The notes beneath the pieces are model-generated. The model worked only from the letters and a program-made list of their open reading frames with translations. It had not been told where the DNA came from and did not search any database. A DNA stretch of 38,503 nucleotides, taken from contig JAHJYN010000059.1 of NCBI GenBank assembly GCA_018826885.1, positions 1-38,503 on the forward strand. The letters run 5' to 3'. Each line of letters starts with the position of its first letter. Position 1 is the stretch's first letter. A program made the translations under genes and the position numbers. This DNA is from Alphaproteobacteria bacterium (GTDB lineage Bacteria > Pseudomonadota > Alphaproteobacteria > Caulobacterales > Caulobacteraceae). Of the stretch, positions 28,534-38,503 are shown piece by piece.

Positions 28534-29736
28534 GTGGTTGTCGATCCCTGTGGGGAGCGCCACGTCTTCGGCACCGACGACACTCCAACGGCAAGCATTC
28601 GGCTCAATGATCCCCGCACCCCGGCCCGGGTGCTGGCCGACCCTATGCTGAGTGTAGGTGAGGCCTATATGGACGGGACGCTTGTCCTGGAGGGTGGGTC
28701 GCTGCGCGACTTCCTGATGATGGGCGTTTCCATCGCCAATGATTTCGCCAAATCGCCATTCGCGGCGGGAGAGTTCGTCGGACCTTTCCGGAAGCGCCAA
28801 CGACGCAATCCAATCGCCCGGGCTCGCGCCAATGTGGCCCATCACTACGACTTGTCCGAGGACCTCTATCGCCTGTTTCTTGACCCCGACCTGCAATACT
28901 CGTGCGCATACTTTCAGGATGGCGATGAGAGCCTTGAGGTCGCCCAGGCCAAGAAGAAGCGTCACATCGCCGCGAAGCTGCGTCTGCAGACCGGTGCCCG
29001 CGTGCTCGATATTGGAAGTGGCTGGGGTGGCCTGGCGCTCGAACTGGCAAGCCGGCATGGCGTCGAAGTCGATGGCCTGACGCTATCCGACGAACAATTG
29101 CGGGTCGCCGCTGCCCGTGTCTCCGCTGGCGGACTGGAGCCGCACGTACGCTTTCATCTTCGCGACTACCGCCATGAGACTGGAACCTACGACCGTATCG
29201 TGTCTGTCGGGATGTTTGAACATGTCGGCCAACCGCACTACCGGGAGTTCTTCAATATCGTCCACCGACTACTGGTGCCGGACGGGCTCGCGGTCATCCA
29301 TGCGATCGGACGAACGGGTCCGCCAGCCGAAAACGACCCATGGATCGAGAAGTATATCTTTCCCGGCGGATACTGCCCGTCATTGTCGGAAGTGTTTACG
29401 GCGGTCGAACATAGCGGATTACGGGTGACTGACGTGGAGCTTTTGCCGCTCCACTATGCTGAAACCCTTCGGTGCTGGTCGGAAAGATTCGGCGCCAGCC
29501 GGGCCCGCGCCGCTGAAATCTATGACGAACGCTTCGGCCGCATGTGGGAGTTCTATCTCGCAGCCTGTGAAGCGGCATTCAGGGTCGGCAACATGACGGT
29601 GTTTCAGCTTCAGCTCACGCGATGCGTCACGGCTTCCCCGCCGACTCGAGATTACATGATCGACGAGGAACGCCGGTTACTTGTCTCAGAGACCAGCCCG
29701 ATCAACGGGCTGTTGCCTTGTGGCGATCTATCCTGA
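28534..29736 (+). CDS. cfa: Cyclopropane-fatty-acyl-phospholipid synthase
   Basis: ARANVAHHYDLSEDLYRLFLDPDLQYSCAYF, VLDIGSGWGGLALELASRHGVEVDGLTLS, MFEHVGQPHYREFF; GTG start at 28534 but coding similarity seems to extend upstream. Confidence 0.92.
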   Translation: MVVDPCGERHVFGTDDTPTASIRLNDPRTPARVLADPMLSVGEAYMDGTLVLEGGSLRDFLMMGVSIANDFAKSPFAAGEFVGPFRKRQRRNPIARARANVAHHYDLSEDLYRLFLDPDLQYSCAYFQDGDESLEVAQAKKKRHIAAKLRLQTGARVLDIGSGWGGLALELASRHGVEVDGLTLSDEQLRVAAARVSAGGLEPHVRFHLRDYRHETGTYDRIVSVGMFEHVGQPHYREFFNIVHRLLVPDGLAVIHAIGRTGPPAENDPWIEKYIFPGGYCPSLSEVFTAVEHSGLRVTDVELLPLHYAETLRCWSERFGASRARAAEIYDERFGRMWEFYLAACEAAFRVGNMTVFQLQLTRCVTASPPTRDYMIDEERRLLVSETSPINGLLPCGDLS

Positions 29737-30097
29737 GAAGGCAGCGAAAGCCGCTGACGGTCTGCTCATCGATGAGGCGGATCCCTCGAACGCGCGCGCT
29801 GAACCGGTGCGAGAGCCGACGAGATCATCACGCCGGACGCCGTCGGCGGGCGACGCGATCTCCCCTCGACGGTCAGGCGGGGGCTCCTCGTGACACACCA
29901 CGTCCCTGCGTTTGAGTTCGCAGCGTCGGGAACATGGGGTGGAGGTGCTGACAAGGTCAAATCAGGCAATCGACCCTCGTTGGCATCGGCTCGGGCGAGG
30001 GCTGCCATCCGCATGACTGCGGCGCTGATCAAAAGTCATTCCATCGGCTCAGAGTGGCGGACCCCGGGCCAAGCCATGGGTCTGCCACAAGGCTGAT

Positions 30098-30159
30098 CAG
30101 GGAGAGAAAGGAAGGCCGGACGGCGGGTGCTCCGTGGTGGAGCGGAGAAGGAGACCGCC
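30098..30159 (+). promoter_or_regulatory. Purine-rich leader with 5-nt-loop hairpin (GCTCC-GTGGT-GGAGC, 30129-30143) before radC
   Basis: One of four similar leaders; see findings. Confidence 0.55.
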
Positions 30160-30864
30160 ATGAGACCGAACCCGACCGGGGTCTGGGCCGAGGATACGCA
30201 CAAGGGCCCGCCCGCATCGTCGATGCTCATCCATGCGGCGCTGGATGATCAAGCCCTGTTGGGCTTGATGTTGAGACGGGCGGTCCATGATCCTGAAGGT
30301 GATCCTGGCAGGAACACGGATCGGCTCGCCGCCGCCTTGCTTGAGCGGTTCGCAGGTCTGGGCGCTGTCGTCGCCGCCGAGCCGGGCGAACTGTCGCGCG
30401 CGTCCGGCCTCAGCCCGCTCGCCCTGTCGGATCTCAAGCTGCTGCGTGAACTGGCGATCCGCCTGGCGCGCGATGAAACCTGTCGACGCCCCGTCATCAC
30501 CTCCTGGACGGCGCTTGTGGCCTATGTCCGAACGGCGCTCGCGCATGAGCCCCGCGAGCAGTTTCGAACCCTTTTTCTTGATCGGAGGAACAACCTGCTT
30601 CGCGATGAACTGATCGCGCACGGCACAGTGGACCACGCGCCTGTTTACCCACGTGAAGTGGTTCGCCGGGCCCTCGAACTTTCGGCCTCGGCCCTGATCC
30701 TGGTCCACAATCATCCCTCCGGAGATCCGACGCCGTCGCAGGCCGATATCCAGATGACGCGCCAGGTCATCGAGGCGGCGCGGGTGTTCAATCTCCAGGT
30801 CCATGATCACCTCGTGGTCGGCCGGGAAGGGACGGCCAGCTTCAAGGCCCTCGGCCTGATCTGA
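30160..30864 (+). CDS. radC: RadC-family (JAMM/MPN) protein of mobile-element type
   Basis: HNHPSGDPTPSQAD JAMM motif; EQFRTLFLDRRNNLLRDELIAHGTVDHAPVYPREVVRRALE. Confidence 0.93.
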   Translation: MRPNPTGVWAEDTHKGPPASSMLIHAALDDQALLGLMLRRAVHDPEGDPGRNTDRLAAALLERFAGLGAVVAAEPGELSRASGLSPLALSDLKLLRELAIRLARDETCRRPVITSWTALVAYVRTALAHEPREQFRTLFLDRRNNLLRDELIAHGTVDHAPVYPREVVRRALELSASALILVHNHPSGDPTPSQADIQMTRQVIEAARVFNLQVHDHLVVGREGTASFKALGLI

Positions 30865-30871
30865 GGTCATC

Positions 30872-31774
30872 ATGACGCTGCACCGTATTGTCGCCGCCGT
30901 GGGCGGCGATCTCTATTCCGATGGCCGGCGCGCCAATATCCCCGCGCCCGGCCACAGCGCTCGGGATCGCTCGGTCTCGCTCCTGTTGACTGATGACCGG
31001 GTCGTCATTCACGGGTTCGGCGGCTCCGACTGGCGGATTGTCCGCGACCATCTGCGGAGCGCCGGCCTGATCGACCACACCGGCCGATTGATCGGTGGCG
31101 CGCGACCGGGTCCGTCCGCCCCGAGACCCGATCTCCGTGTTCGCCTTCAGACCGCTTCAGATATCTGGGCCGGCTGTCGTCCTCTCTACCGCGGTGACGC
31201 CGGGGATCGCCACCTGCGTCATCGCGCCGTCGCAGGCGTCGACGACCCCTTGAACCTCGGGTGTCATCCGGAGGCACCGATCTCTGTTTACCGACCGCGC
31301 GGTCGCGGCAGGCCCGCCCTGATCGCGCGGATCAGCGATGCACAGGATCGGCTGACGGCGGTGGAAGTGACCTATCTCGACCGGAACGGGCGGCTTGCCT
31401 CGGGCCTTCGACTGACGCGCAAGACGGTTGGCCAGGTCCCTTCGGGCGCCGCTGTTCGTCTGGCTCCGGTCGGCCCGGAGATGCTGGTCGGGGAGGGGGT
31501 GGTGACGACCCTGTCCGCCATGGACCGCTTCCAACTTCCGGGCTGGGCGCTGATGGCGGCCAACAATCTTGCCGCCTGGACGCCACCGTCTCTTGTGCGC
31601 CGCCTGCTGATCGCCGCCGACCGCGGAGCTGCGGGCGAGCGCGCCGCGGAACGACTCCGGCGACGCCTCGCGGTCGTCGGTCTGGATGTTCGCATCCGGC
31701 TTCCAGACCCCCCGTTCGGGGACTGGAACGAGGTGGCGGTGGACGCGGCCAAAGTGGAGGAGCGAGGGCGCTGA
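30872..31774 (+). CDS. Toprim-domain protein (plasmid/ICE primase-like)
   Basis: LLVGEGVVTTLSAM..., LLIAADRGAAGERAAERLRRRL typical of Toprim domains; 8 nt from radC stop. Confidence 0.8.
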   Translation: MTLHRIVAAVGGDLYSDGRRANIPAPGHSARDRSVSLLLTDDRVVIHGFGGSDWRIVRDHLRSAGLIDHTGRLIGGARPGPSAPRPDLRVRLQTASDIWAGCRPLYRGDAGDRHLRHRAVAGVDDPLNLGCHPEAPISVYRPRGRGRPALIARISDAQDRLTAVEVTYLDRNGRLASGLRLTRKTVGQVPSGAAVRLAPVGPEMLVGEGVVTTLSAMDRFQLPGWALMAANNLAAWTPPSLVRRLLIAADRGAAGERAAERLRRRLAVVGLDVRIRLPDPPFGDWNEVAVDAAKVEERGR

Positions 31775-31825
31775 CGGGCGCCGGAGCGGCGGGGATGGAC
31801 CCCGAAGCCCGGCGGGAGAGCCCCC
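31755..31825 (+). promoter_or_regulatory. Purine-rich leader with 5-nt-loop hairpin (CGGGG-ATGGA-CCCCG, 31790-31804) before parB
   Basis: See findings. Confidence 0.5.
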
Positions 31826-33868
31826 ATGACCGATCTTGTTCCTGACACCATCCCGGCTGTGATCATTGAACGTGATGAGCGCACCGTTCGCCTCGGCGAC
31901 GTCGGCATCGCTCGAGAGAACCTGCGGTTCAGCGAACAGCCGGATGACGACATCCCGACTCTGGCCGCTACATTGAAGGCCGCCGGCCAGCTGCAGCGCC
32001 TCACCGTCCGGCCCGGCCGGGGCCGCAAGGAGCAGCCCTGGATGGCGCTGGACGGGCGTCGGCGCCGCCTCGCCCTGGGCCTGTTGCAGGAGGCCGGCGA
32101 GATCGACGAGGATTATCCCGTCACGGTCTATGTCGAGACCGATCCGGCCCGCCAGGCGGCTGCCGTCCTGCTCACCAACACCGCCGTGCCCGTCCATGTC
32201 GCCGACATCATCGCCGCCATCGGCCGGATGCTGAAATCGAAGCTGACCGTGCCTGTGATCGCCCGGGCCCTCGGCTACGCCGAGATCGACATCAAGCGGC
32301 TGGCCGCCCTGGCCGGACTGCCTGCGGCGGCCCTTGTGGCCCTGAAGGGCGGGCGGATGACCCTCAAACAGGCCAGGCTGTTGGCCCGGCTGCCCGACAA
32401 GGCCGAACAGGCCGAACTCGCCGAGGCGGCGCTTGACGGGCATGGGTTTCAGGACTGGCGCATCACTGAGCGGCTCGACGAGGGGCGTGTCACCAGCCGG
32501 GATCGACGCTGTGCTCTCGTCGACGCGGACAGTTATGGCGAGGCGGGCGGGCGCACCGAGGCGGATTTGTTCGGGGAACTCGCGCCCGTATTGCTCGATC
32601 CGGAGATTCTGACCGACCTGTGGATGCGTCGGGCGCGCGCTATCGCCGCCGTGTTCGAGGCCGAGGGAATCGCCGTGCATGTCACCGCCGGACCCGAACC
32701 GGACCTCCCGGACGACCTTGAGGCGCTGGGCTATGTCTATCGCGGTCAGCTCCCGGCCGACGAGATGGCGCGCTACCGGGCCCAGCGCGACGCGTTCAAC
32801 GCACGGGCGGACGCGGTCCGGCAGGCCCTGGCCGAGGCCTGTGATTCCGAGGCCGTTGACGCCGCGATTGTCGCCATGATCCGCGCCCGGGTGCAGGCCG
32901 ACCAGACGGGGTGCGGCGGGCGGGTGGTGACGACCATGGTCATGTGGCCCGCCGCCGGCACGGGCGTCGATGTGCGCTGCTACACGCCCGAGGAGCCTGA
33001 AATCGAGGACGCCGGATCGCTCGACAGTGATCCGGCGGACCGGGCGTCGGCTCCGCCGGTCTATGTCGCTCCGGAGGCGCCGGCGCCCGAGCCTGACACC
33101 GACGGCGTCAACCACGCCCTGCATGGCGTACGCACCGAGGTGGCCACGCGCGGACTGATCCGGGCCCTGGCCGACGATCCGGGCGCGGCGCTGACGGCCC
33201 TGATCGCGCGCCTGTTCACCGTCCTGGTTCTGCGCACCCATGTGGCGCGGTCGGAGTCAGCCCTGGCCATTCTCGCCACCGGGTTCGATCCGGTGGACGG
33301 ACGGGTAATCGAGACCCTGGACGGCGAGGTGCGCCAGCGGCTCGACGACCGTCGGGCGGCCTGGCAGGCGTCGGGTGAGACGGTCATCGCCTGGGTCCAT
33401 GCCCTGCCGCACGGGGAGAAAATGGGGCTGCTGGCGGAACTGACCGCGATCAGTCTCGATGTCCGCGAAACCCGCACCACCCTGATCCGGCGCAGCGCCC
33501 GAACGGAGGCGGCCGAGCTGGCCGCCCTGTGCGGGGCGGACATCACGCTCCACTGGACGCCGGACGCGCCCTTCCTGCAGGCCCATTCCAAGGGACTGCT
33601 GCTGGGAATGCTGGAGAGCATGGGCGCGGAAGACGAGCGGGCGCGATCCTTGAAGAAGACTGAACTGGTCGACTGGGTCGCCGAACAGGCGGCGTCCCGG
33701 AGCTGGGCGCCGGCCGGCCTCTCCTGGGCGGGTCCGCTGCCGGACGAGGAACCGGTGACGACCGAAGAGGACGTTGGTGCTGACGTGTCCACCCACGACG
33801 ACGACGGGATCGGGGCATTCACCGTCACCCCGGCGGGCGAGGCCGCCCTGGGGCCCGCCGCCGCCTGA
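31826..33868 (+). CDS. parB: ParB/RepB/Spo0J-family protein
   Basis: ParB-N-like: ENLRFSEQPDDDIPTLAATLKAAGQLQRLTVRP...LDGRRRRLALGLL; HTH-like VPVIARALGYAEIDIKRLAAL. Confidence 0.88.
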   Translation: MTDLVPDTIPAVIIERDERTVRLGDVGIARENLRFSEQPDDDIPTLAATLKAAGQLQRLTVRPGRGRKEQPWMALDGRRRRLALGLLQEAGEIDEDYPVTVYVETDPARQAAAVLLTNTAVPVHVADIIAAIGRMLKSKLTVPVIARALGYAEIDIKRLAALAGLPAAALVALKGGRMTLKQARLLARLPDKAEQAELAEAALDGHGFQDWRITERLDEGRVTSRDRRCALVDADSYGEAGGRTEADLFGELAPVLLDPEILTDLWMRRARAIAAVFEAEGIAVHVTAGPEPDLPDDLEALGYVYRGQLPADEMARYRAQRDAFNARADAVRQALAEACDSEAVDAAIVAMIRARVQADQTGCGGRVVTTMVMWPAAGTGVDVRCYTPEEPEIEDAGSLDSDPADRASAPPVYVAPEAPAPEPDTDGVNHALHGVRTEVATRGLIRALADDPGAALTALIARLFTVLVLRTHVARSESALAILATGFDPVDGRVIETLDGEVRQRLDDRRAAWQASGETVIAWVHALPHGEKMGLLAELTAISLDVRETRTTLIRRSARTEAAELAALCGADITLHWTPDAPFLQAHSKGLLLGMLESMGAEDERARSLKKTELVDWVAEQAASRSWAPAGLSWAGPLPDEEPVTTEEDVGADVSTHDDDGIGAFTVTPAGEAALGPAAA

Positions 33869-33887
33869 CGACGATCCGCCTCGAGCA

Positions 33888-33915
33888 CGCCGCCCCGGTT
33901 CGCGCCGGGGCGGCG
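33888..33915 (+). terminator. Perfect 11-bp stem / 6-nt loop hairpin after parB
   Basis: CGCCGCCCCGG-TTCGCG-CCGGGGCGGCG followed by TTGTCG. Confidence 0.65.
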
Positions 33916-33934
33916 TTGTCGTGTCCGGATGCTG

Positions 33935-34026
33935 GTCCGGGGAAAGGCGAGGGAAGGGCGGGCGAGGACGAGCCTGCAGGACCGAGAGGGAGGCGCCCTC
34001 CGCTTCAGGCCACCGGAGCTGATCCC
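33935..34026 (+). promoter_or_regulatory. Purine-rich leader with 5-nt-loop hairpin (GAGGG-AGGCG-CCCTC, 33986-34000)
   Basis: See findings. Confidence 0.5.
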
Positions 34027-37000
34027 ATGTCCTCGACCCTGTTGCTGTTCGCCGACCCCAGCGGAGATACGTCCGCCAACATCCTTGCCGCCGCCCGGGC
34101 GCTGGCGGCCCATCTGGCGCGATCCCGACCGCTCGACCGTCGGCTTGTGGCCGCCGTCATGACCACCGCATTCGGCGCGTCCGACGCCGAGGGGGCCTGG
34201 GCCTGGCGCGACGCCTATGACGCGATCGAGGCGGCGACGGTCCTGCAGATCCGGCGTCTGGCGCCCCAGGTCAGTCGTCTGGAGGATGCGCCGGCGGAGA
34301 TCGCCGCCCTTCTGGCGGCTGTCTCGGCCCTGGGCCTGACCCAGACCCGGCGCAGTGAGGCGCAGGTCGCGCTGGACCAGTTCTCCACCCCGCCCCACCT
34401 GGCCGCGCTCGTGGTCCTGGCCGCCCGGGTGCGCCCCGGAGACCGTGTCCTGGAGCCGTCGGCAGGCACGGGTCTGCTGGCCGCGGTCGGCGGGGCCTGC
34501 GGCGGAACGCTGAGCCTGAATGAAGTCGCGCCGGGGCGCGCCGCTCTGCTCGACGGTCTGTTCCCCGACGCCGATCGGACCCGTCATGACGGACGCCATA
34601 TCCATGACCTGAGCGCGGACGCGGGCGGGTTCGACGTGGTGCTGTGCAATCCGCCGTTCTCGGATCTCGGCGAGCATCTGTCAGCGGCCTTCAAGGCCCT
34701 GGCCGACCATGGCCGGTTGGCCGCGATCGTCCCGCTGACCGCCTTGACGGACGCAAGCCTGCTTCGACGCTTCGGTGAGGCGCGACGTGTCGTGGGGCGG
34801 TTCGCCTTTCCACCCCATGCCTTCGCCAAACACGGGACCGCCGTGGAGACGGGTCTGCTGGTGATCGATCGGGCCGAAGGCGCCGCGGAGGCCGCGCCTG
34901 TCCAGACCTCCGACGATCTGCAGGACGCGGCGCGGAAGGTTGGGGCGCTTGCGCCACGGGTCGGCGCCAGGCCGCGGACGCGCCTGCCCGTGACGACCGA
35001 CGCCCTGCTGGGACCGCGCGCGCGAGGCCTGGCCCTGCCTTCGGGCCGCCTGGCCTTCCTCGCGGGTGCGGCGCCCCTGGCCTATGAAGTGCAGGCCTGG
35101 ACCGGGGAGGGGCGCGATGTCGGGCTCTACCAGGCCCATGCCCTGGGGCGCGTCGTCCTGGCCGCGCCGCGTCCGCATCCGTCGCCCCTGGTCGAGTCCG
35201 GACCCATGGCGTCAGTGGCCCTGCCGCCACCGACCTATCGGCCGGTCCTGCCGCCGGCCATCCGCGATGAGGGGCGGATCTCGGACGCCCAGACCGAGAT
35301 GGTGATCCATGCCGGGGAGGCGCACGCCGCGCACCTGCCCGGATGGTGGCGGCCGGATCAGGCGCCGCACCAGATGGTGCTGGTCTCCGAGGAGCAGGAG
35401 GAGGCCGTCCAGCTGCGACGCGGCTTCTTTCTCGGCGACGGCACGGGGTGCGGCAAGGGCCGCCAGATCGCCGCCGTCATCGCCGACAACATGAGCCAGG
35501 GACGGGTCCGTGCGCTGTGGCTGTCTCGAAACGACGCCTTGCTCGAGGACGCGCGGCGCGACTGGGCCGCGATCGGCGGGGGCGCCTACGACATCGTGCC
35601 GCTGTCGAGCTGGAAACAGGGGGACGCGATCCGGCTCGACCGGGGTGTCCTGTTCACGACCTATGCGACGCTGCGCCAGCCGGCCCGGGGTGACCGTCAA
35701 TCCCGCCTCGACCAGATCATCGCCTGGCTCGGAGCGGATTTCGACGGCGTCATCGCCTTCGACGAGGCCCATGCGATGGCCAATGCGGCCGGCGGCGGCA
35801 AGGGCGCGCGGGGTGCGAAGAAGGCGTCGCTTCAGGGCATGGCCGGTCTGGCGCTGCAGAACCGGTTGCCCGACGCGCGGGTCCTCTATGTCTCGGCGAC
35901 CGGCGCCACCACAGCCGAGAATCTGGCCTATGCCGCGCGCCTCGGCCTGTGGGGCGGACCGGAGGCCCCCTTCATGACGCGGGCGGATTTTCTGGAGGCC
36001 ATGGATCGGGGCGGCGTGGCGGCGATGGAGCTGGTGGCGCGCGAGCTCAAGGCGCTTGGGCTCTATGTGGCGCGCAGTCTGTCGTTCGAGGGGGTCGAAT
36101 ATGAACCGCTCGTCCATCCCCTGACCTTGGACGATATCGCGATCTGGGACGCCTGGGCCGACGCCTTCCAGCTGATCCACGCCAATCTCGCCGAGGCCCT
36201 GAAGGCCACGGGCCTGAACGACGAGGACGGCAAGCCGAAGAGTGGCCAGGCGGCGTCCGCCGTATATTCGGCCTTTGAGAGCGCCAAACTGCGCTTCTTC
36301 GGTCATCTTCTCGCCGGCCTGAAGACGCCGAGCCTGATCACATCGATCCGGGAGGATCTGGTCCAGGATCGCTCGGCCGTGGTCCAGATCGTCTCGACCA
36401 ATGAGGCGGTCATGGAGAGGAGACTCTCCTCCATCCCGCCGGAGGAGTGGAACAACCTCTCCATCGACCTGACCCCGCGCGAATACGTTCTCGACTATCT
36501 GCGCGAGGCCTTCCCCGTCCATCTGATGGAGGCGATCGAGGACGGGGACGGCAATGTGACCATGGTCCCGGTCATGGACGACGGTCGCCCGGCCGTCAGT
36601 CAGGAGGCGCTGGTGCGTCGCCAGGCCCTGATCGAACGGATGGCTTGCCTGCCCGCCGTACCGGGTGTGCTCGACGCCCTGCTGGAAGCCTTCGGCACGG
36701 ACGACGTCGCCGAGATTACGGGCCGGTCGCGGCGGGTGGTGGTGCGTGGCGGACGGCGCATCGTCGAACGGCGCGGCGCCGCGGCGGCCCGCGCCGAAAC
36801 AGACGCCTTCATGAGCGGCCGCAAGCGGGTGCTGATCTTCTCCGACGCCGGAGGCACCGGACGCAGCTATCACGCGGACCTGTCGGCGGCGAACCGGCAG
36901 CGCCGGGTCCATTATCTGGTCGAGCCGGGCTGGCGCGCGGATGCCGCCATCCAGGGCCTGGGCCGCAGCCACCGCACCCACCAGGCCTCGGCCCCGTTGT

Positions 37001-38280
37001 TCCGGCCGGTCACGACCGACATCCAGGGCGAGAAGCGCTTCACCTCGACCATAGCGCGCCGGCTGGACACGCTCGGCGCCCTGACGCGCGGCGAGCGCCG
37101 GACGGCCGGTGCGGGCCTGTTCCGGGCCGAGGACAACCTGGAGAGCCCTTGGGCGCGCAGGGCCCTGCTGGTCTTCTACGGCGCACTGGCCTTCGGTGAA
37201 CTCGCCTCGATGACGCTCGAGACCTTCATGAACAAGACAGGTCTCAAACTGCTCGACGCCGACGGCGGTCTCAAACCCTCCGACGACCTGCCGCCAATCC
37301 ACACTTTTCTGAACCGGTTGCTGGCGCTGAGGATCGCCGACCAGAACGCCCTGTTCGAGGACTTCGATCGCATCCTCTCGGGCATCCTCGAGCGCGCGGC
37401 CGCGTCGGGAGATCTGGACCGGGGCCTTGAGGACATCGAGGCCGGGGAACTGGAGGTTCTGGACCAGGAAACCATACGGACCGACGTCTCGACGGGGGCC
37501 GAGACCGCCCTGGTGACCTTTTCGCTGAGGGTTCGTCGAGACATCCTGCGCTCTGACGACGCTTTGGCCCGGGCCGCCGACATCGCCCATCAGATGGTCG
37601 TCAACGCAAAGTCCGGACGGGCGGCGATCGCCGAACTGGGCCTGACCACCGCCACGGACGAGGACCGGCTCGTCGCGGCCGTCCGTCTGATCCGGCCGGA
37701 TGGACGCCAGACCCTGGCGGAGAAGACGTTCGAGGAATCCGCCTGGAAGCGAGCGGCGATCGATGACTGGCGCCGGGTCTGGGATGAGGAGGTCGCGGGA
37801 ACCGATCCCTGGCTGAGGCGTGAGCTCACGCTGGCGACCGGCCTGCTGCTGCCGATCTGGGGCCGGTTGCCGGCGCGCGGGTGTTCGGTGCGTCGGGTTC
37901 GGGCGCCCGACGGCCGACGCTGGCTGGGGAGGGTCCTGGACGAGACCCAGGCCCGGGCGCTCAAGGCGAGCCTGGGCCTGGGCGACATCGGCGACGCCTG
38001 GGCGGACGGCGCCAGAACCGCCGCCAGCCTCCTCGACCGCAGCGTCCAGCTCTGTCTGGAGGGGGGCCTGTGGCTGAAACGGGCGCGGGTGATGGATCGC
38101 TGGCGGATCGAGGTGGTCGGCGGCCGGACCGATCGCGACGTCCTGGTCGCGCTCGGCTGCTTCGTGGAGATCATCGCCTTCACGCCCAGGGTCTTCATCC
38201 CGATCGACCGGCCCCGCGTCCTGGAAGCTGTGTTGCGTCGTCACCCGGTGCAGTCGGTCCTCGACGGCGCGGCGGCCTGA
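34027..38280 (+). CDS. N6-adenine methyltransferase-like + Strawberry-notch (SF2) helicase-like fusion protein
   Basis: MTase: VLEPSAGTGLLAAVGGACGG and DVVLCNPPFSDL (NPPF); helicase: FFLGDGTGCGKGRQIAAVIADN (Walker A), VIAFDEAHAMAN (DEAH), VLYVSATGATT, GRSHRTHQ. Start at 34027 (ATG). Confidence 0.9.
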   Translation: MSSTLLLFADPSGDTSANILAAARALAAHLARSRPLDRRLVAAVMTTAFGASDAEGAWAWRDAYDAIEAATVLQIRRLAPQVSRLEDAPAEIAALLAAVSALGLTQTRRSEAQVALDQFSTPPHLAALVVLAARVRPGDRVLEPSAGTGLLAAVGGACGGTLSLNEVAPGRAALLDGLFPDADRTRHDGRHIHDLSADAGGFDVVLCNPPFSDLGEHLSAAFKALADHGRLAAIVPLTALTDASLLRRFGEARRVVGRFAFPPHAFAKHGTAVETGLLVIDRAEGAAEAAPVQTSDDLQDAARKVGALAPRVGARPRTRLPVTTDALLGPRARGLALPSGRLAFLAGAAPLAYEVQAWTGEGRDVGLYQAHALGRVVLAAPRPHPSPLVESGPMASVALPPPTYRPVLPPAIRDEGRISDAQTEMVIHAGEAHAAHLPGWWRPDQAPHQMVLVSEEQEEAVQLRRGFFLGDGTGCGKGRQIAAVIADNMSQGRVRALWLSRNDALLEDARRDWAAIGGGAYDIVPLSSWKQGDAIRLDRGVLFTTYATLRQPARGDRQSRLDQIIAWLGADFDGVIAFDEAHAMANAAGGGKGARGAKKASLQGMAGLALQNRLPDARVLYVSATGATTAENLAYAARLGLWGGPEAPFMTRADFLEAMDRGGVAAMELVARELKALGLYVARSLSFEGVEYEPLVHPLTLDDIAIWDAWADAFQLIHANLAEALKATGLNDEDGKPKSGQAASAVYSAFESAKLRFFGHLLAGLKTPSLITSIREDLVQDRSAVVQIVSTNEAVMERRLSSIPPEEWNNLSIDLTPREYVLDYLREAFPVHLMEAIEDGDGNVTMVPVMDDGRPAVSQEALVRRQALIERMACLPAVPGVLDALLEAFGTDDVAEITGRSRRVVVRGGRRIVERRGAAAARAETDAFMSGRKRVLIFSDAGGTGRSYHADLSAANRQRRVHYLVEPGWRADAAIQGLGRSHRTHQASAPLFRPVTTDIQGEKRFTSTIARRLDTLGALTRGERRTAGAGLFRAEDNLESPWARRALLVFYGALAFGELASMTLETFMNKTGLKLLDADGGLKPSDDLPPIHTFLNRLLALRIADQNALFEDFDRILSGILERAAASGDLDRGLEDIEAGELEVLDQETIRTDVSTGAETALVTFSLRVRRDILRSDDALARAADIAHQMVVNAKSGRAAIAELGLTTATDEDRLVAAVRLIRPDGRQTLAEKTFEESAWKRAAIDDWRRVWDEEVAGTDPWLRRELTLATGLLLPIWGRLPARGCSVRRVRAPDGRRWLGRVLDETQARALKASLGLGDIGDAWADGARTAASLLDRSVQLCLEGGLWLKRARVMDRWRIEVVGGRTDRDVLVALGCFVEIIAFTPRVFIPIDRPRVLEAVLRRHPVQSVLDGAAA

Positions 38281-38309
38281 GTTCGGCCGGACGAGGCGAA
38301 GGCCCCGTC

Positions 38310-38401
38310 CGGTAAGGAGGGGACGGGAGGAAGGGAAGATGAGGGTGAAGCGGGATCGGGGAGATCGGCTCCCCGGCGCTTCGGATCAACAGGAGACTGA
38401 C
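38310..38401 (+). promoter_or_regulatory. Purine-rich leader with 5-nt-loop hairpin (CGGGGAG-ATCGG-CTCCCCG, 38357-38375)
   Basis: See findings. Confidence 0.55.
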
Positions 38402-38503
38402 ATGCAGACCATGGTGTTCACCGGCCGACTGGCGGCCGATCCCCAGATCAGCGACGACTTCGGCAAGGCGGTGTTCCGGCTGCTCGAGAAGCGCGGTGTC
38501 GAC
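38402..38503 (+). CDS. ssb: Single-stranded DNA-binding protein-like (3' truncated by window edge)
   Basis: MQTMVFTGRLAADPQISDDFGKAVFRLLEKRGVD resembles SSB N-terminus; AGGAG upstream. Confidence 0.65.
   Translation, partial: MQTMVFTGRLAADPQISDDFGKAVFRLLEKRGVD

Follow-up and report, generated by a model that had tools for sequence, protein, structure and literature searches.

To our knowledge, the expression of establishment genes (ssb, antirestriction, ParB-like, and methyltransferase-helicase genes) in alphaproteobacterial conjugative elements is largely an open matter, the known mechanism coming from F-like plasmids. Among described structured elements, the STAXI motif is located in the vicinity of SSB, antirestriction-protein, integrase, and topoisomerase genes, consists of two or three copies of a pseudoknot in which UUCG tetraloops are frequent, and is proposed to act as RNA or as single-stranded DNA (PMC2864571). 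The radC RNA motif (Rfam RF01754), named after radC, is found in Proteobacteria and is probably cis-regulatory (PMC2864571). The window examined here, JAHJYN010000059.1, is one complete contig of 38,503 bases from a 315-contig genome; its final 8.4 kb carry radC, a Toprim gene, a large parB-like gene, a methyltransferase/strawberry-notch helicase gene, and the start of ssb. As read from the sequences, the leaders of radC, parB, the helicase gene, and ssb contain a conserved, sense-strand-specific RNA structure beside the Shine–Dalgarno (SD) sequence, with a tract and an apical sequence common to several genes. There is good reason to regard them as one family of cis-acting RNAs by which translation initiation is tuned at establishment genes, probably via a common binder.

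The preliminary description of this region had reported four perfect hairpins with five-nucleotide loops, each preceded by a G/A-rich tract. The hairpins are present exactly where they were placed, accompanied by the tracts, and end 16 nucleotides (nt) before the ATG of radC (30160), 21 nt before that of parB (31826), and 26 nt before those of the helicase gene (34027) and ssb (38402). As a description of the layout, the hairpin is adequate for radC, in which it is the whole helix, and incomplete for parB, the helicase gene, and ssb, in which it is only the inner hairpin (P2) within an overlooked outer helix (P1). The 16–26 nt spread arises because the value of 16 refers to the end of P1 (radC), while the values of 21–26 refer to the ends of P2. 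By chance, a perfect stem of at least 5 base pairs with a five-nucleotide loop occurs in 5–16% of leaders in dinucleotide-conserving shuffles; the product over four leaders is approximately 8e-5, rising to about 2% once loops of 3–8 nt are permitted. On the window by itself, the leader claim is interesting yet weak, and it is the homologous loci that settle the matter.

The genus to which the window belongs is presumably a Brevundimonas-like member of Caulobacteraceae; 52 of 131 genomes from it encode homologues of the ParB-like protein. From this genus, approximately 60 homologous loci were retrieved, and the regions 5′ of each orthologue were extracted. The same layout stands ahead of the same genes in these loci and spans five gene classes: radC, parB, helicase, ssb, and gcrA. 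The last, located after ssb in the same elements, encodes a protein that resembles GcrA (homology judged by eye) and has a plasmid homologue annotated as GcrA family. Conservation begins at the purine tract and continues 3′, the sequence 5′ of the tract being not conserved. The tract has the consensus RRAGGAAGGG and is followed by a short linker frequently ending in GGGYG. In the consensus folds of all five classes, the 3′ strand of P1 ends approximately 11–19 nt before the ATG, adjoining the SD, with the parB gene of the window as the 11-nt case. P1 is capped directly by the pentaloop in radC and gcrA (gcrA leader, GAGGAAGGGCGG...GAGCC-GATCG-GGCTC) and encloses the pentaloop hairpin P2 in parB, helicase, and ssb. 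An apical hexamer, GATNRG (GAUNRG in RNA), recurs in radC, gcrA, parB, and ssb, such that the pentaloop is either GATNR or ATNRG; in the helicase class the apex is relaxed to GATGAG, GAGGAG, or GAGGCG.

Two models were built, R1 from the radC and gcrA leaders and R2 from the parB, helicase, and ssb leaders. The four leaders of the window are as follows.

30107..30148, forward strand: radC leader, 40.8 bits with R1, of which this sequence is itself a part. Purine tract AAAGGAAGG at 30107-30115; P1 GCTCC-GTGGT-GGAGC at 30129-30143 with a U-G pair beneath; a possible closing helix around the SD, GGCGG (30122-30126) with CCGCC (30155-30159).
31759..31812, forward strand: parB leader, 29.9 bits with R2 (E 1.2e-4), the parB gene of the window being absent from R2 training. 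Purine tract near 31756-31768; P1 CGCCGG (31779-31784) paired with CCGGCG (31809-31814); P2 CGGGG-ATGGA-CCCCG at 31790-31804.
33949..34014, forward strand: methyltransferase-helicase leader, 51.1 bits with R2, in whose building it was included; weakly detected also by R1, a model without any helicase leader. Tract GAGGGAAGGG at 33949-33958; P1 33972-33979 with 34003-34010, one mismatch; P2 GAGGG-AGGCG-CCCTC at 33986-34000.
38326..38386, forward strand: ssb leader, 65.8 bits with R2, in whose building it was included. Tract GGAGGAAGGG at 38326-38335; P1 TGAAGC (38346-38351) with GCTTCG (38378-38383); P2 CGGGGAG-ATCGG-CTCCCCG at 38357-38375.

The fold is conserved beyond chance within each class. 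For radC, parB, helicase, and ssb, none of 200 column shuffles reaches an RNAalifold consensus energy as low as that observed, and for gcrA one of 200 does. The regions upstream of the Toprim genes, which serve as a negative control, show no structure in the same kind of consensus (energy 0), and the earlier observation that the Toprim gene lacks a leader is confirmed in the window. Pairing is likewise retained across classes. In an alignment of the radC and gcrA leaders (A1), 97.3% of cells are paired versus 78.6% in shuffles and 20–49% when slid, with 26 double changes versus 10.6; in an alignment of the ssb, parB, and helicase leaders (A2), the corresponding values are 95.7% versus 79.3% and 26 versus 10.3. 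Part of these double changes fall between gene classes and hence represent few events. Within classes, double changes exceed the shuffles in all five (6, 4, 5, 10, and 4 cells versus means of 1.2, 0.5, 1.8, 2.8, and 0.6).

The deviations also indicate which strand folds. Helices with a Watson–Crick consensus contain 90 G-U versus 17 A-C deviations (29 versus 15 pair columns), in a count whose cells are not independent of each other. Judged from this asymmetry, the strand whose pairing is kept is the mRNA-sense strand; the G-U excess on it argues against both a double-stranded DNA operator and a template-strand fold of the single-strand promoter type.

The classes recognize each other. In the E-value band of 8.5e-5 to 0.2, R1 matches 54 leaders absent from its training (20 parB, 12 helicase, and 22 ssb) and 8 other positions, most of them one recurring antisense position within parB and one a site resembling a leader, ahead of an additional small open reading frame (ORF) upstream of toprim (locus L120). 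R2 matches 19 gcrA and 5 radC leaders and 7 positions elsewhere, two of which are offset matches at radC leaders. A descriptor combining the tract with the GATNRG hairpin gives 78 matches over 1.03 Mb versus 2–4 in Markov controls; 71 of the 78 passed an automatic test for a downstream gene, whose SD or length rule missed the remaining 7, all clearly leaders of ssb or gcrA. When the descriptor is loosened by dropping the apex, its matches are mainly to the five classes, with some background. Chance hairpins in GC-rich leaders are ruled out by the homologous loci and by the controls. The original proposal of a cis-acting RNA element is thus borne out: further instances precede the GcrA-family gene of the same elements and genes on related plasmids (ArdC/zincin, Toprim, gcrA, and others), paired changes rise above shuffles in the five classes and both cross-class alignments, and randomized sequence fails to reproduce the full descriptor, so that none of the three outcomes named beforehand as counting against the proposal came about.

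Across 150 genomes of the order, R2 matches with E < 1e-3 are confined to these modules, and weak matches outside them (E 0.01–0.02; L166-L171) look like chance. A separate R2 match (E 0.01) at L175 (G453:C3:123419) precedes a gene of unknown kind encoding 174 amino acids, approximately 8.5 kb from a leader-bearing parB homologue; it is possibly another member gene.

Plasmids of Caulobacter and Phenylobacterium carry the layout ahead of parB, helicase, stand-alone Toprim, ArdC/zincin, gcrA, and uncharacterized genes, and R2 finds leaders on plasmids that were not used in its building. Clear R2 matches are the helicase leaders of L110, L111, L114, and L112 (E 4.5e-9 to 3.4e-4) and the leader of an uncharacterized gene in L111 whose end overlaps radC (E 2.9e-5); also clear are the R2 matches to the parB leaders of L111 and L109 (E 0.002–0.003) and the R1 match to the gcrA leader of L111 (E 6.4e-4). 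Weaker matches precede zincin in L114 (E 0.026), ArdC in L112 (E 0.12), and Toprim in L109 (R1, E 0.04). The radC gene that overlaps its upstream neighbor has no leader, while that neighbor carries one; similarly, Toprim genes behind radC are without a leader, while the stand-alone plasmid Toprim has a candidate one. These cases indicate that the presence of a leader depends on the translation unit rather than on the gene. At L034 (near 3144), L120 (4877), and L122, where an insert lies between radC and toprim, a new leader-like sequence stands before a small ORF running towards toprim.

In the proposed mechanism, one leader copy would stand at the head of every translation unit with a start of its own within the establishment and DNA-processing module of conjugative or mobilizable elements and would act within the mRNA on translation initiation. 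Either the purine tract, with its potential to pair with the 3′ end of 16S rRNA, or the GAUNRG hairpin may be bound by one shared factor that turns radC, parB, the methyltransferase-helicase gene, ssb, and gcrA up or down together. The recurrence of the apical sequence and the tract, added to the similarity in shape, inclines the interpretation towards a common binder. In a stronger and distinctly tentative version, the leaders would be a regulon-wide RNA operator, with one trans-acting factor (a protein or a small RNA) reading the tract or the GAUNRG hairpin and switching the translation of establishment genes jointly on entry into a new host; if true, this would parallel, at the post-transcriptional level, the zygotic induction brought about by single-strand promoters.

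Several observations weigh against a family of regulatory leaders. The apical hexamer is not universal, being GTGGTG in the radC leader of the window and GAGGCG in the helicase leader. Within classes, paired changes are scarce (29 cells over 12 pairs), and the shuffles overstate their significance because the sequences are related. Pairing between the tract and the anti-SD beats shuffled tracts in radC and gcrA only and is no better in parB, helicase, and ssb; since shuffled tracts pair equally well in these three classes, a standby role would draw its support from composition.

A serious rival is a plain, unregulated aid to translation, in which the tract is a ribosome standby site and the hairpin serves as a clean spacer, preventing occlusion of the SD in a GC-rich mRNA, with no dedicated factor. 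In its favor are the strength of the tract–anti-SD duplex (approximately -12 kcal/mol, compared with -7 to -9 kcal/mol for the proximal SD), a P1 that abuts the SD without covering it, and the presence of one leader per independently started unit. However, it leaves unexplained why the GAUNRG apex and the GGGYG anchor recur and why the leader is confined to the module, the host genome making no use of it; the shuffled-tract result in three classes counts against it as well and speaks against extended anti-SD pairing as the sole account of the tract. As a full explanation, the unregulated aid is possible but doubtful.

An element for mRNA processing or stability between genes of one transcript is improbable. 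The leaders do sit between genes read in one direction, and hairpins near 5′ ends can protect mRNA, but the proximity to the SD in every class and the dependence on the translation unit fit initiation better. An intrinsic terminator or attenuator (a GC stem followed by a U run) is rejected, as no terminator-like site overlaps any leader.

Still less probable is a single-stranded DNA promoter of the Frpo/ssi type, in which the entering strand folds and RNA polymerase transcribes the establishment genes at once. The gene set (ssb, ArdC-type, methyltransferase, and ParB) resembles leading-region establishment genes, Frpo sits upstream of ssb genes (PMC11541004), and the leaders could in principle fold as DNA too. 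However, the Frpo fold has -35/-10-like elements (PMC11541004), and a scan of 29740-38503 on both strands, which does not cover other promoter types, shows no sigma-70-like site. The G-U pairs of the sense strand would become C-A mismatches on the template strand, which is the one that an entering template would fold, and with the fold beside the SD the resulting transcript would have almost no leader. A double-stranded operator bound by a common transcription regulator, although suggested by inverted repeats before several genes and by a GcrA-family DNA-binding protein encoded in the module, is very unlikely given the one-strand G-U bias, the nested P1/P2 with asymmetric internal loops, the location of the sites within gene runs beside the SD, and stems that vary between genes, whereas a double-stranded operator conserves sequence.

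The genes of the module, all on the forward strand, are as follows.

30160..30864, forward strand: radC, RadC JAB-domain protein (Pfam PF04002).
30872..31774, forward strand: Toprim gene (DUF7146 and Toprim_3, Pfam), close behind radC and without a leader; used as the negative control.
31826..33868, forward strand: large ParB-like gene (Pfam PF17762, ParB HTH).
34027..38280, forward strand: methyltransferase/strawberry-notch helicase gene (Pfam AAA_34 and Helicase_C_4).
38402..38503, forward strand: ssb, start only, as the contig ends here; the L134 homologue has a Pfam SSB domain.

A relaxase-like gene lies a few kb past gcrA in L134, which supports a mobile element.

More distant modules are diverse. 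Plasmids of Mesorhizobium, Agrobacterium, and Croceicoccus have, by eye, purine tracts and hairpins of other sequences before parB, helicase, ArdC, DUF3768, and DUF736 genes. On the Croceicoccus plasmid (L188; 8923, 14376, 17518, 19091, and 19984), a tract RGGGGAGGGGG and a hairpin stand before helicase, parB, DUF3768, DUF736, and an uncharacterized gene, perhaps as a sphingomonad form of the same leader. The purine tract and hairpin are not seen in the leaders of a Roseivivax plasmid (L187), so that not all modules of this kind carry the element. Helicase leaders of a Hyphomicrobiales type (L083-L090, L093, L094; L186, L189) have in common GAGAGGGAGAGG ... GGGTTTGAGCCGG ... GAGAGAGCG ... CCGGCTC ... 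CGCTCTC. Here the pairs GAGCCGG/CCGGCTC and GAGAGCG/CGCTCTC are interleaved in the manner of an H-type pseudoknot, and both strands of the first helix change together, giving GAACCGG/CCGGTTC in L094. A different, two-hairpin leader, GGTCGCGTGATCGCGG...CCGCGAGCCGCC...GGCGG followed by the SD, precedes ssb on several Caulobacterales plasmids (L110 33146, L111 26818 and 33078, L114 13783, and L115 24180), and a related form precedes a small uncharacterized gene (L114 11431 and L110 31772). DUF2493 genes (L110 29416, L111 30761, and L114 8346) have another conserved upstream region, GACGCTGCGCTCAAAGCCCTTGTGGGG ... CGAGCCGACGGGCTC.

The recurring leader marks genes that are handled together and offers a sequence handle for annotating establishment genes, through which shared translational control becomes directly testable. 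It also illustrates that a helix shape and a short apical sequence can persist across unrelated genes in one mobile module.

The leader is likely new, as searches of open-licence literature gave no description of it and it is absent from Rfam. Rfam 15 gives zero matches at gathering score over the leaders of the window, four plasmid loci, and twelve helicase loci. The radC RNA motif, despite its name, is a 149-position model with a different sequence and different helices; RF01754 has no match at gathering score in the window, none up to E 10 in 29700-38503, and none above the cut-off in a set of 16 genomes that contained module carriers and the source genome of the window, and its best sub-threshold match differs in sequence from the leaders. 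Frpo/ssi elements are similar in that they too fold and lie upstream of leading-region genes, ssb among them (PMC11541004), but Frpo is a promoter with -35/-10 elements, whereas none are seen in the leaders, whose sense RNA strand keeps the pairing. STAXI shares similar neighboring genes, such as those for SSB and antirestriction proteins; unlike its repeated pseudoknots, the leaders have a single P1 or P1 with P2, pentaloops, a purine tract, and a fixed site beside the SD. In phage coat-protein operators, ribosomal-protein leaders, and the leader of T4 gene 32 (SSB), a protein-bound hairpin beside the SD controls translation. Each of those serves one operon, whereas here the shape recurs before at least five separate genes whose stems differ.

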